A stretch of 64,000 nt of DNA from Vulcanimicrobiota bacterium. Lineage in GTDB: Bacteria; Vulcanimicrobiota; Vulcanimicrobiia; Vulcanimicrobiales; Vulcanimicrobiaceae. Shown piece after piece: positions 28,880-37,256 of this stretch; position 1 is the first letter of the stretch, and each line of letters starts with the position of its first letter. A model generated the notes under the pieces. The model was not told where the DNA came from. It ran no database searches and saw only the letters and a program-made list of their open reading frames with translations. Where the stretch lies: assembly GCA_027306785.1 (NCBI GenBank), contig DAHUZB010000005.1:62001-126000 (forward strand), in the 5' to 3' direction. Both the position numbers and the translations under genes were made by a program.

Positions 28880-30427
28880 TCACAGAGGAGCGGTCTCGCT
28901 ACCGCGTTCGGCGGCGGCCACCAGCGCGCCCGAACGAATCAGCGAACGCGCGGCTTCGATATCGGGTGCGGGCACGCGATCCTCGGTCCACGGTGCGATG
29001 CGTTCCCGTGCCGCATCGTAGGCAGCTTGCGTGCCGGCGCCCGAGACGAGCGGCCGTCGGAAATCGGTCGCGGTGATCGCGCCGAGCAATTCGCACGCGA
29101 GTGCACCTTCGACGTTGTCGAGCACGCGCACGAGATTGTTTGCCGAGGTCATGCCCATGCTCACATGGTCCTCTTGCCCGGCCGACGTCGGAATCGAATC
29201 GACGCTCGACGGCCACGCGAGCGCCTTGTTGTCGTTGACGACGGCCGCCGCCGCGTACTGCACGATCATCAATCCCGACTGCAGCCCCGAGCGCCCGGTC
29301 AAGAAGAGCGGCAGATCGCGATCCTCGGCATTGAGCAACAGGTAGAGGCGACGTTCGCCGATCGAAGCGAGCTCGGATATCGCGAGCTTGAGGAAGTCCA
29401 TCGCGAGCGCGATCGGCTCACCGTGAAAGTTGCCGCCCGAGAGAAACTCGCCGTCGTCCGGGAAGACGAGCGGATTATCGGTCACCGAGTTCGCTTCGGT
29501 CTCCGCGACGCGGCGCGCGTGCGCGATCGAGTCGCGCACGGCTCCGTGCACGACCGGGATGCAGCGGAACGAGTACGGATCCTGCACGCGCCCGCACTCG
29601 CGATGCGATTGCATGATCTGCGAGCCCGCCAGCAGCGCGCGCAGATTCGCCGCCACCTTCATCTGCCCCGGATGCGGGCGCAGGTCGTTCAAACGCTGAT
29701 CGAAGACGCGATCGGTGCCGAGATAGGCCTCGAGCGACATCGCCGCGATCACGTCGGCCGCCGCCGCCAACCGCTCCGCGCGCAGGATCGCGAGCGCCGC
29801 CGTGCCGGTCATCACCTGGGTACCGTTGATGAGCGCCAAGCCTTCTTTGGGACCGAGCGTCACCGCAGCGAGGCCGGCGCGCTGCAGCGCTTGCGCGCTC
29901 GGCATGCGCTCGCCCGCGTACCACGCCTCACCCTCGCCGATCAGGGTGAGCGTCATGTGCGCGAGCGGCGCGAGATCGCCCGACGCGCCGACCGAGCCCT
30001 GGCACGGCACGACCGGGGTGACGCCCCGATTGAGCAGTTCGGTGAGCAGCTCGAGCGTCTCGAGCTTTACGCCCGAATGTCCGGCAGCAAGCGAGTTGAC
30101 GCGCAGCACGCCCGCCGCGCGGACGCGCCGCGGGTCGAGCGGGTCGCCGGTTCCGGCCGCGTGCGAACGTACCAGATTCAGCTGCAGCTGCGCCGCGTCT
30201 TTCGGGTCGATGTGCACGTTCGCAAGTCGGCCGAAGCCGGTCGTGACACCGTAGATCGCGTGGCCGTCGGCGAAGCGTTCATCGACGAAGCGACGCGCCT
30301 TGGCGACACGCTCGCGCGCGTCCGCCGAAACGGTGACCCGGGCGCCGTCGGCAACGGCCTCGATCGCCTCGAGCGTGAGATGGCGGCCGTCGAGCTCGAC
30401 GGTGGGGGCTGCAGGGCTGGAATGCAT
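28880..30427 (-). CDS. hutH: Histidine ammonia-lyase
   Basis: Removes ammonia from histidine to form urocanate, first step of the hut pathway. The 515 aa include YGVTTGFGRLAN near residue 59 (catalytic Tyr region) and the A148-S149-G150 triad in GSVGASGDLAPLAH, which forms the MIO prosthetic group. Further family blocks are LINGTQVMTG, VQDPYSFRC and EDHVSMG. ATG 30427 fits the family length. It is separated from hutU by a DUF2723 gene and the PadR pair, so the hut genes are not in one transcript. About 100 bases separate it from the divergent oxidase-transporter gene. Confidence 0.96.
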   Translation of the reverse strand: MHSSPAAPTVELDGRHLTLEAIEAVADGARVTVSADARERVAKARRFVDERFADGHAIYGVTTGFGRLANVHIDPKDAAQLQLNLVRSHAAGTGDPLDPRRVRAAGVLRVNSLAAGHSGVKLETLELLTELLNRGVTPVVPCQGSVGASGDLAPLAHMTLTLIGEGEAWYAGERMPSAQALQRAGLAAVTLGPKEGLALINGTQVMTGTAALAILRAERLAAAADVIAAMSLEAYLGTDRVFDQRLNDLRPHPGQMKVAANLRALLAGSQIMQSHRECGRVQDPYSFRCIPVVHGAVRDSIAHARRVAETEANSVTDNPLVFPDDGEFLSGGNFHGEPIALAMDFLKLAISELASIGERRLYLLLNAEDRDLPLFLTGRSGLQSGLMIVQYAAAAVVNDNKALAWPSSVDSIPTSAGQEDHVSMGMTSANNLVRVLDNVEGALACELLGAITATDFRRPLVSGAGTQAAYDAARERIAPWTEDRVPAPDIEAARSLIRSGALVAAAERGSETAPL

Positions 30428-30508: not shown

Positions 30509-30523
30509 TTAGGCTAAGCTAAC
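30509..30523 (+). promoter_or_regulatory. DtxR/IdeR-like metal box ahead of the oxidase-ZIP gene
   Basis: TTAGGCTAAGCTAAC matches 12 of the first 15 positions of the known DtxR/IdeR consensus TTAGGTTAGCCTAACCTAA. It ends seven bases before the ATG. The element and match are seen; binding by an iron- or manganese-dependent repressor is inferred. No such repressor gene lies in the window. Confidence 0.55.
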
Positions 30524-30529
30524 AGCGCT

Positions 30530-32392
30530 ATGCGGACCCTGCTTTGGATCGCGGCCCTGCTCGCGGCTCTCCTCCCCGTCGCCGTCCTCGCCGATGCCGA
30601 CGAGGCGCCCATCGGCGTCAATCCGGCGACGCTCGGGCTCCAGCCGATCGTCGGAACGATCCCGCGTGCGACGCCCGCTCCCGGCGAGTCGCGTGCCGTT
30701 CCGCGCCCCGACGGCACCGTTCAAGCGGTTGCGCGGGTGCACGGCCGTACCAAGACCTTCACGCTCGTGGAACGCCTTGCGCCGTGGACGCTCAAACCCG
30801 GTCTGACCGTCATGGCGCACACGTACAACGGCGTGGTGCCCGGCCCGGTCCTGCTCGTCGATCAAGGCGACACGGTCGTGATCCGCTACGAGAATCACGG
30901 CGATATGCCCGACACGATCCATCTGCACGGCATTCACGACATCCCGGTCTCGATGGACGGCGTCGGCGGCATCTCGCAGCCGATGGTGCAGCCCGGCGGC
31001 TCCTTCACCTATCGTTTCGTCGCGCGCCAACCCGGCACGTTCATCTATCACACCCACGATAACGAAGCGATGCTCGACTCGGGTCTGTACGGCGTCATCA
31101 TCGTGCGTCCGACACATCCGCTACCCGTCGAACGCAATGTCGCGCGCGACTACGTCGCGGTGCTCTCGTCGTGGATCATCCGCAGCGCGACCGAGAATCA
31201 TTTCACGATCAACGGCAAAGAGTATCCCGCGACCAAAGCATTCGACGTGCGCGAAGGCGAGCGCATGCGCATTCGCTGGGTGAACATCTCGGGCGAAGAG
31301 TGGCACACGATGCACACGCACGGCCACTATCAGCGTATCATCGCGCGCGATGCCGAACCCGTCGCCGGGCGCGACATGCAGGATACGGTCGCGCTCGGTC
31401 CCGGACAACGTGCCGACGTCATCATCCGCGCGAATGCGAAGCCGGGAACCTGGCTCGTGCATTGCCACGTCACCGATCACGTCGAAGACTCGCACGGCAT
31501 GCCCGCCGGACTCATCACCGCCATCCACTACATCGGCACCCCGAACACGCTCGGCGCGATGTACGACGCGATGAAGCCGATGATGATGGGAGGCAACGGT
31601 CCGAAACCGCTCGGCATGTGGCAGACGATCCTGCTCGGCGCGATCGCGGGCTTCACGATCTTCCTCGGGCTGCCGATCGCACGCGCTCGCGCGCTCTCTC
31701 CCAAAGTCATCGCGCGTCTCAACGCGATCGCGATCGGCATTCTCGTCTATCTCGTCGTCGAGATCGCGCAGAACGCCGTGCATCCGCTCGCGGCGGGATT
31801 CGCCGCCTGGCACGCGGGGCAAGGCCCGCTGCCGATCGCGCTCTCGTTGCTCTTCGCGGGCGGTTTGCTGCTCGGATTGGTCGGCCTCGGCAGCGGCGCG
31901 ACGCACTTCGTGAAGAGCCGCATGCAGCACCCGCCGGATCATCCGATGGTGCTCTCCGCGCTCATCGCCTTCGGCATCGGCGCGCATAATTTCGGCGAGG
32001 GACTCGCGATCGGCGCATCGGCCGCATCGGGTGCGACCGCGCTTGCGATCGGACTGATCGTCGGCTTCGCGCTGCACAACGCGACCGAAGGCTTCGGCAT
32101 CGCCGCGCCGATGGCCGGTCGCATGGTGCCGTCGTGGAAGCAGATCTTTCTCGCCGGATTGATCGGCGGCGGCCCGACCTTCCTCGGCACGCTGATCGGC
32201 TACTACTTCACCTCGCCGCTCCTCTCGGTCTTCTTCCTCGCGATCGCCGTCGGCGCGTTGATCTACGTCATCGGCGAGCTCTGGAGCGTGCTCAAGAAGG
32301 TCGGACTCTCCGTTTCGATCACGACCGCGCTCGCCTGCGGCTTCTTCGTCGCGCTGGCAACCGAGCTCTTCGTCGATCTCAGCGGTGGATAA
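30530..32392 (+). CDS. Two-domain multicopper oxidase fused to a ZIP-type metal transporter
   Basis: A 620-aa fusion. Residues 1-22 are a signal peptide. Residues ~75-345 are two cupredoxin domains with all copper motifs: H131-L-H133-G, H174-T-H176, H259-T-M-H262-T-H264, and H311-C312-H313 followed by H317 and M324 (type 1 site). Residues ~360-620 hold about eight membrane helices with both ZIP metal motifs, H486-NFGEG491 in one helix and H516-NATEG521 in the next, as in GufA-like ZIP transporters. The oxidase would sit outside the inner membrane. A plausible job is oxidising or handing over iron, manganese or copper at the mouth of the transporter. No stop or frameshift lies at the junction. 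ATG 30530 sits beside a DtxR-like box. Confidence 0.88.
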   Translation: MRTLLWIAALLAALLPVAVLADADEAPIGVNPATLGLQPIVGTIPRATPAPGESRAVPRPDGTVQAVARVHGRTKTFTLVERLAPWTLKPGLTVMAHTYNGVVPGPVLLVDQGDTVVIRYENHGDMPDTIHLHGIHDIPVSMDGVGGISQPMVQPGGSFTYRFVARQPGTFIYHTHDNEAMLDSGLYGVIIVRPTHPLPVERNVARDYVAVLSSWIIRSATENHFTINGKEYPATKAFDVREGERMRIRWVNISGEEWHTMHTHGHYQRIIARDAEPVAGRDMQDTVALGPGQRADVIIRANAKPGTWLVHCHVTDHVEDSHGMPAGLITAIHYIGTPNTLGAMYDAMKPMMMGGNGPKPLGMWQTILLGAIAGFTIFLGLPIARARALSPKVIARLNAIAIGILVYLVVEIAQNAVHPLAAGFAAWHAGQGPLPIALSLLFAGGLLLGLVGLGSGATHFVKSRMQHPPDHPMVLSALIAFGIGAHNFGEGLAIGASAASGATALAIGLIVGFALHNATEGFGIAAPMAGRMVPSWKQIFLAGLIGGGPTFLGTLIGYYFTSPLLSVFFLAIAVGALIYVIGELWSVLKKVGLSVSITTALACGFFVALATELFVDLSGG

Positions 32393-35374: not shown

Positions 35375-36007
35375 GTGATGCGCATGGCCCTGCACCTTCC
35401 GACGATCCCCGACGACGTCGCGCGCGACATCGCCGCGATCGGCCGCTTCGCCGCCGCGCGCGGTTGGGTGCCCGCGACCAGCGGGAACTTCTCGCGCCGC
35501 CTGGATGACGGGCATGCCGCGATCACGCGCTCCGGCATCGACAAAGGAGCGATCGCGCCGCAGGACCTACGCGTCGTCGCCCTCGATGCGCCGCTGCCCG
35601 CCGGGGTCTCCGCCGAGACGCCGCTGCACGTCGCTCGCTATCGCGCGGACGCGAGCGTCGGCGCCGTCGTGCACGTGCACACCGTTCCGGCGACCGTCCT
35701 CTCACGGGCGGACGCGGCACGCGGCTTCGTCGAGCTCGACGGTTTCGAGATGCACAAAGCGCTCGCGGGGATCACGACCCACGAATCGACCGTGCGCATC
35801 CCCGTCTTCGCGAACGATCAGGATACGCAGGCGCTCGCGACGCGCATCGAGCACGCGCTCGCACACGCGTGCGCCGTACCGGGTTATTTGCTCGCGGGGC
35901 ACGGGCTCTACGCGTGGGGTGCGACGATGGAGGATGCACGCCGCCATCTCGAAGGTCTAGAGTTCTTGCTTACCTGCGCCCTCGAAGAACGGAGACTCCG
36001 CCGATGA
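35375..36007 (+). CDS. mtnB: Methylthioribulose-1-phosphate dehydratase
   Basis: Class II aldolase/adducin-fold zinc enzyme that dehydrates methylthioribulose-1-phosphate in methionine salvage. It is 210 aa long. Visible features are ATSGNFSRRLDDG near residue 32, the zinc ligand pair VVHVHTVPATVLSR near 98, and a third His in LLAGHGLYAWG. Starts GTG 35375, ATG 35378 or ATG 35384 are all possible. Specificity is fixed by the neighbours mtnD and mtnC, with ATGA coupling to mtnD. The first salvage enzymes (MtnA, a kinase or phosphorylase) are not in the window. Confidence 0.92.
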   Translation: MMRMALHLPTIPDDVARDIAAIGRFAAARGWVPATSGNFSRRLDDGHAAITRSGIDKGAIAPQDLRVVALDAPLPAGVSAETPLHVARYRADASVGAVVHVHTVPATVLSRADAARGFVELDGFEMHKALAGITTHESTVRIPVFANDQDTQALATRIEHALAHACAVPGYLLAGHGLYAWGATMEDARRHLEGLEFLLTCALEERRLRR

Positions 36008-36564
36008 CGACGACCGCGACGACCAGTCTGCGCGTCTGGAACGATGCCGATCCGACGACGTTGCTGCTCGATACGAGCGACGGCGAGCGGATCGCGCGTG
36101 AGCTCGCCGCGATCGGCGTGCGCTTCGAACGCTGGTCCGCGGACGCCCTGCTTGCGCCGGGTGCCAATCAAGCGGCGGTGATCGAAGCCTATCGCAGTTC
36201 CGTGGATCGTCTGATCGCGGAGTGCGGCTACCGGTCGGTCGACGTGATCCGACTCGAGCGCGGCACACCCGACACCGAACCGTTGCGCAAGAAGTTCCTC
36301 GACGAGCACCGTCATGCCGAGGACGAGGTACGTTTTTTCGTCGAGGGACGCGGCGCGTTCTACCTGCATGTCGGCGAGCGCGTCTATCAGACCGTCTGCG
36401 TGAAGGGCGATCTCATCGGCGTTCCGGCCGGAACGAAGCATTGGTTCGACATGGGACCCGATCCCGAGTTCACCGCGATCCGGCTCTTCATCAATCCCGA
36501 CGGCTGGGTCGCGAACTTTACCGGCGACACGATCGCCTCGTCGTTCCCCGAACTCGACGCGTGA
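36004..36564 (+). CDS. mtnD: Acireductone dioxygenase (cupin)
   Basis: Metal-dependent cupin that splits acireductone to formate and the methionine keto acid precursor (iron form) or, with nickel, to an off-pathway product with CO. The 186 aa include the metal motif EHRHAEDEVRFFVEG near residue 100 (H-x-H and Glu) and the last His in GTKHWFDMG. Its ATG overlaps the mtnB stop as ATGA, and its stop overlaps mtnC as GTGA. The metal used in the cell cannot be told from sequence. Confidence 0.94.
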   Translation: MTTTATTSLRVWNDADPTTLLLDTSDGERIARELAAIGVRFERWSADALLAPGANQAAVIEAYRSSVDRLIAECGYRSVDVIRLERGTPDTEPLRKKFLDEHRHAEDEVRFFVEGRGAFYLHVGERVYQTVCVKGDLIGVPAGTKHWFDMGPDPEFTAIRLFINPDGWVANFTGDTIASSFPELDA

Positions 36565-37256
36565 AGTTTCACGCCCGCGCCGCGCTCGTCGACATCGAGG
36601 GCACCGTCGGCTCGATCGCGTTCGTTCGCGACGTGCTCTTTCCGTATGCGCGCGACCGCATGGACGCCTACGTCCACACCCATCGCGAAGAGCCGTGGAT
36701 GCGCGCGATCCTCGACGACGCCGCGCACGAGGCGGGTCTCGATCCGCACGACCTGCCCGCGATCCTCGCGGCGTTGCACCGCTGGGCCGAGGACGACGTC
36801 AAGGTGACGCCGCTCAAAGCGCTGCAGGGACGCATCTGGGTCGAAGGATTCGAATCGAGCGGCATTCGCGGACATCTCTACGACGACGCGGTCGATGCGC
36901 TGCATCGCTTTCACGATGCGGGCACGGCGCTCTACCTGTACTCGTCGGGCTCGATCGCCGCGCAGCGCCTCCTCTTCGGACACACGATCGCGGGCGATCT
37001 CCTCCACCTCTTCCGCGGATTCTACGACACCACGATCGGCGGTAAACGCGAGGCCGCTTCCTACGAACGCATCCTCGGCGAGATCGACGTCGCTCCGAAC
37101 GAGACGATCTTCTTCTCCGACAATGCCGCCGAACTCGACGCGGCACGCGAGGTCGGCATCCAAACGGTGCAGCTGGCCCGTCCGCAGGACGGCACCGCGC
37201 CGAGCACGGCGCATACCTCGGTCGCGAGTTTCGCGGAGATCGACCTCAGCCCATAA
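36561..37256 (+). CDS. mtnC: Enolase-phosphatase E1
   Basis: HAD-superfamily enzyme that enolises and dephosphorylates the diketo intermediate made by MtnB. The 231 aa include the nucleophile motif LVDIEGTVGSIAFVRDVLFPYA (DIEGT, near residue 11), YSSGS as motif II, and FFSDNAAELDAA with the metal aspartate. The GTG at 36561 forms GTGA with the mtnD stop. The 3' end overlaps the convergent nadR by 11 bases. Together mtnB-D-C cover the middle of the salvage pathway in order. Confidence 0.95.
   Translation: MKFHARAALVDIEGTVGSIAFVRDVLFPYARDRMDAYVHTHREEPWMRAILDDAAHEAGLDPHDLPAILAALHRWAEDDVKVTPLKALQGRIWVEGFESSGIRGHLYDDAVDALHRFHDAGTALYLYSSGSIAAQRLLFGHTIAGDLLHLFRGFYDTTIGGKREAASYERILGEIDVAPNETIFFSDNAAELDAAREVGIQTVQLARPQDGTAPSTAHTSVASFAEIDLSP

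Follow-up and report, generated by a model that had tools for sequence, protein, structure and literature searches.

A multicopper oxidase fused to a ZIP transporter in Eremiobacterota is probably a metal-starvation uptake device

The described systems closest to the locus reported here combine a copper oxidase with a metal permease. Fet3p-Ftr1 of yeast consists of two proteins, a three-domain multicopper oxidase (MCO) and the permease FTR1. Nitrososphaera viennensis carries adjacent genes for MCO1 and a ZIP permease (NVIE_000600/NVIE_000590), and joint metal uptake by the two products has already been suggested for ammonia-oxidising archaea (PMC7785015, PMC5767755). One proposal is that the archaeal MCO converts Cu(I) to Cu(II) and that copper enters via the ZIP (PMC7785015), the alternative being that MCO1 oxidises hydroxylamine (PMC7785015, PMC5767755). 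No MCO-ZIP fusion was found described in the open-access papers that we have searched.

We have analysed a window (the whole stretch of DNA under study, 64,000 nucleotides, on contig C9) from a 3.14-Mb genome. Its source is a soil bacterium in Eremiobacterota, an uncultured phylum, and the relatives of the genome carry the name Candidatus Eremiobacterota. A plus-strand gene at 30530..32392 runs from ATG to TAA in a single unbroken frame of 620 amino acids plus stop, bearing out the first-pass annotation, which had proposed an MCO and a ZIP transporter in one polypeptide. The protein is ordered as a probable signal peptide, a two-domain MCO, a short linker and a complete eight-helix ZIP domain. 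Compared with Fet3p-Ftr1, it is broadly similar in uniting a copper oxidase and a metal permease under metal-starvation control (proposed for the fusion), but differs in having a ZIP instead of FTR1, one protein instead of two and a two-domain MCO. The archaeal MCO1/ZIP, likened here by its published description, is encoded by two genes rather than one.

The first 21 residues (30530..30592, plus strand like all features of the gene) form a probable Sec signal peptide or anchor, hydrophobic from residue 3 to 21 and followed by DADE. Cupredoxin domain 1 (about residues 66-197, 30725..31120) matches Pfam Cu-oxidase_3 at residues 90-195 (1.7e-31) and carries H131, H133, H174 and H176. Domain 2 (about residues 205-338, 31142..31543) matches Cu-oxidase_2 (8.5e-27) and bears the T1 copper site, the site residues being H259, H262, H264, H311, C312, H313, H317 and L328. 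Since the T1 ligands H259, C312 and H317 sit in domain 2 and domain 1 is without a T1 cysteine, we assign the MCO part as a two-domain MCO with T1 in domain 2 (type B). Its nearest relatives in sequence and fold, and closest solved folds, are the two-domain MCOs 2zwn (a metagenome laccase) and 3g5w (Nitrosomonas), in whose alignments the T1 HCH motif belongs to domain 1 whereas domain 2 has HDH, the reverse of the fusion. In the single-chain structure model the T1 loop has a pLDDT below 50 and the pTM is 0.54, with an uncertain domain arrangement.

The ZIP domain (residues 361-620, 31610..32389) contains eight predicted helices within residues 363-617 of the structure model, in agreement with the earlier claim of about eight helices with both ZIP metal motifs. 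It matches the NCBIfam ZupT equivalog model over residues 363-607 (1.8e-11, far under the model's own cut-off) and Pfam ZIP at 1.2e-07 (31.7 bits, below the cut-off of 35.1 bits). Alignment to the BbZIP structure (5tsa) placed the metal-site residues of TM4 and TM5, together with a Glu of TM6 (H486, N487, E490, H516, N517, E520 and E583), in register. The motif positions listed in the first-pass annotation (H131/H133, H174/H176, H259/H262/H264, H311-C312-H313, H317, M324, H486NFGEG and H516NATEG) were all recovered as given. The juxtamembrane linker between the two halves (about residues 339-360, 31544..31609) has one predicted helix, at residues 341-353 (31550-31588), in which Met344 is kept in 37 of 41 relatives and Met348 in 36 of 41; the two could form a possible metal relay beside the membrane.

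The same layout recurs among relatives. An MCO and a ZIP in one frame were present in 65 of 149 sampled phylum genomes (64 without a stop and one with an in-frame stop), all belonging to three families of one class, at 46-86% identity. Remoter members of the phylum gave partial MCO matches only. Based on one scan of genome contigs (at least 80 loci) plus the sampled genomes, the MCO-ZIP order was limited to one class of one phylum among the matches listed. The copper ligands and ZIP motifs were (nearly) invariant across 41 relatives: H131, H133, H174, H176, H259, H262, H264, C312, H313 and H317 were each kept in all 41, as were the seven ZIP residues named above, and H311 in 40, such that seven of the eight histidines of the trinuclear centre are fully conserved. 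The one assignment that is probably wrong is that of M324 as a T1 ligand. This position is Met in 31 relatives, Gly in six (all six sequences of the sister family f3), Leu in two and His in two, while L328 is kept in 41/41, which makes Leu (L328) the more likely axial ligand on sequence grounds. The T1 axial residue of archaeal MCO1, another two-domain MCO, is also reported as Leu.

We have then considered the upstream region. A 14-base palindrome, TTAGGCTAAGCTAA, close to the DtxR/IdeR operator-like TTAGGCnnGCCTAA, occupies 30509..30522 and ends 7 bp before the start codon. Of 46 homologous loci, 43 have a box with at least 10/12 matches upstream of the fusion gene or its operon, the loci being kin and the 43 matches not independent events; among 3000 random windows drawn from these loci, 92 had one. 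The site is the sole match in the window at up to one mismatch. As 29 of 100 shuffled windows likewise gave at least one match, the weight of the box comes from its position and conservation. The motif is rare in the genome, where a reversed control pattern matches about 10 times more often. Exact TTAGGCnnnnCTAA occurs there at two sites, before the fusion and about 10 bases before the gene of a probable outer-membrane barrel, and TTAGGTTATCCTAA, a palindrome with one mismatch, lies 6 bases upstream of an Nramp gene. Hence the best boxes of the genome stand 6-10 bp upstream of the starts of the fusion, Nramp and probable barrel genes. A box also precedes the homologous barrel gene in a sister species and the homologous Nramp gene in another relative.

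A DtxR-family gene with three domains (PF01325+PF02742+FeoA) is directly upstream of the fusion in family f3, overlapping it by 4 bp at loci L036 and L040, and the box stands before dtxR. A single-contig genome (G010) encodes an MCO (L027:6832-8052) that the tree placed inside the fused clade and that has lost the ZIP half, with one C-terminal hydrophobic helix left. No box was found upstream of this MCO gene, which, in this one case, suggests that the box is tied to the transporter function.

Taken with the class-wide conservation, the DtxR-type box makes it probable that the fusion serves metal uptake under starvation, in a form that is new to the literature searched. We consider that it would be an importer with an attached oxidase under DtxR control, at a rough probability of 0.6. 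The first-pass annotation had suggested a coupled redox-uptake device; the metal-uptake part is likely, given the DtxR box, the dtxR operon and the box shared with Nramp. A coupling of oxidase and transporter in one redox-uptake step, as in Fet3-Ftr1, would be hypothetical, and the parallel with that system is a loose one. The protein would import a divalent metal, either Fe(II) or Mn(II), across the inner membrane and carry on its periplasmic side the two-domain MCO, whose T1 copper sits in domain 2. When metal is ample, the gene would be kept silent by a DtxR/MntR-type repressor; starvation would release it, together with the Nramp transporter and the probable outer-membrane barrel as candidate co-regulated genes. 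In two-domain MCOs, the three-copper site is formed between adjacent subunits. At least a trimer of MCOs would therefore be expected, with three ZIP domains beneath.

In the same mechanism, the ZIP half would import M2+ and the oxidase would act with O2 on a reduced metal ion at the ZIP entrance, most likely Fe(II). The oxidation would serve selectivity or protection, rather than the supply of Fe(III) through the ZIP; the divalent-metal ligands kept in the ZIP favour oxidation at the entrance over Fe(III) channelling, with low confidence. We regard this specific role of the oxidase as rather doubtful. The fusion, the conserved sites, the operator-like box, the candidate regulon and the dtxR operon of the sister family, all read from the sequence, leave unexplained why an M2+ importer bears an M+/M2+ oxidase, and this is the weak step of the mechanism.

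The two functions were also found side by side outside Eremiobacterota. Plasmids (a collection that is a biased sample) of Actinomycetota, Deinococcota, Bacillota, Cyanobacteriota, Alphaproteobacteria and haloarchaea carry MCO and ZIP as unfused neighbouring genes, in genera that include Arthrobacter, Deinococcus, Rhodococcus and Sinorhizobium, with the MCO gene first as in the fusion. Of 15 pair loci inspected, seven adjoin a DtxR/MntR gene (L157, L159, L160, L162, L164, L165 and L176, on plasmids and of a lineage apart from the fusion), one adjoins a Fur-family gene and two have Nramp near. The trees placed the MCOs and the ZIPs of the pairs in separate, fully supported clades. In the Arthrobacter pair, of which we have the full sequence, the T1 cysteine lies in domain 1, in contrast to domain 2 of the fusion, and its ZIP has an extra N-terminal domain that the fusion ZIP lacks. 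Fusions of the opposite domain order, ZIP-MCO, were found in Alicyclobacillus cellulosilyticus (Bacillota) and Deinococcales (Deinococcota), at L096:3461-5287, L117:578-2530 and L156:5944-7755. They too are single polypeptides with T1 in domain 2, and are 40-42% (MCO) and 40-46% (ZIP) identical to the fusion. Their MCOs share a clade with the Eremiobacterota fusions, and their ZIPs group with other solo ZIPs, suggestive of a fusion event that was probably independent. The loci of the closest solo ZIPs that were examined have no adjoining MCO genes. No DtxR box was found before the reverse fusions, and box scores outside Eremiobacterota were weak.

Judged by where the trees place the pairs and the forward and reverse fusions, MCO and ZIP functions have likely come together on at least three separate occasions, some tree supports being moderate. 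ZIP proteins have both termini outside, so the MCO would be expected on the periplasmic side in either order. Such repeated and apparently independent joining, in which either order should leave the MCO on one and the same face of the membrane, suggests that MCO and ZIP work together. A broader proposition, to which we give somewhat less than even chances, is that oxidase-ZIP coupling is a general, undescribed strategy of metal acquisition, controlled by DtxR/MntR, with at least three origins (apparently the gene pairs, the MCO-ZIP fusion and the ZIP-MCO fusion) and replacing FeoB/FTR1 in one class of Eremiobacterota. If true, this would mean a one-protein oxidase-importer in a class without the usual ferrous and ferric permeases detected, and a role could be assigned to the MCO-ZIP pairs that are a puzzle in ammonia-oxidising archaea and on many plasmids.

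Fe and Mn are each possible as the metal of the fusion. The one DtxR-family protein detected in the window genome matched IdeR (1e-31) and MntR (about 1e-10) in the PDB, and its sensor residues are E10/C102. The f3 regulators have M10/C102, of the iron type, and those beside the unfused pairs mostly have D/E, of the manganese type, leaving the sensor residues ambiguous as to the metal. Nramp is present in 132 of 148 phylum genomes, three copies being encoded in the window genome, and thus the fusion would not be the sole uptake route. The window genome also encodes a FecCD-type permease, and the fusion is the only ZIP that was detected in it.

A special case of the importer with an attached oxidase is manganese uptake, the MCO removing competing Fe(II) and the ZIP taking Mn(II). 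We consider this possible but on the unlikely side. It is in line with the manganese-type regulators that adjoin the unfused pairs and with the best NCBIfam match of the window genome's regulator, a Thermus-type MntR model, scored below cut-off. MnoP-MntH of Bradyrhizobium is a manganese system made of an outer-membrane barrel and an Nramp, which the barrel and Nramp genes of the candidate regulon recall. The sensor residues M10/C102 of the f3 regulators point to iron instead, as does Cys102, which the regulator of the window genome keeps.

Closer to the yeast system would be a ferroxidase permease, in which the MCO oxidises Fe(II) and Fe(III) passes straight into the fused ZIP. The iron-type regulator residues of f3 would fit such a device, as would the class background: none of 55 class genomes yielded FeoB, and FTR1, the permease of the Fet3-Ftr1 system, was not detected in any of 148 phylum genomes. 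An aspartate next to the T1 histidine, D316, is kept in 40 of 41 relatives, and Fet3p (1zpu) is also among the fold matches of the MCO part. However, the ZIP retains every canonical ligand for divalent metals, which argues against Fe(III) as the product that is carried, and we know of no ZIP that transports Fe(III). We hence regard this reading as unlikely.

Copper homeostasis, with the MCO turning Cu(I) into Cu(II) and the ZIP taking up or handling copper, is unlikely for the Eremiobacterota protein. On plasmids, copper ATPases or chaperones do accompany several of the unfused pairs, and one reverse fusion, within metal-resistance regions, and the published proposal for the similar archaeal gene pair is of this kind (PMC7785015). 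The Eremiobacterota gene is placed behind a DtxR-type box common to Nramp, which disfavours copper, and the conserved neighbours of the fusions include no recognised copper genes. That an assembly or annotation artefact has joined two genes can be practically dismissed, because 65 independently assembled genomes share the one-frame layout, at 46-86% identity.

Some further observations concern the surroundings of the gene. In the window, genes named by eye near the fusion are hutH (histidine ammonia-lyase, 28880-30427, minus strand), a methionine-salvage-like cluster (35375-37256, plus strand) and a WYL-type regulator gene. None of these is conserved beside the fusion in relatives, and across the window's own family the fusion has no conserved operon partners. 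The probable barrel gene (L124:640-1491, minus strand; near 200064 on contig C9 of the window's own genome) lies directly behind a perfect DtxR palindrome, and its product gave zero matches to Pfam and NCBIfam. Genes of monoheme CxxCH proteins, likewise with zero matches to Pfam and NCBIfam, were also seen with DtxR boxes upstream (L138:402-1478, minus strand, and L140:1527-2591, plus strand). In one genome (G036), such a gene is divergent from the fusion, the intergenic boxes being common to both. The L138 and L140 products have a barrel-like C-terminal part, and recall the Cyc2-type cytochrome-porins.
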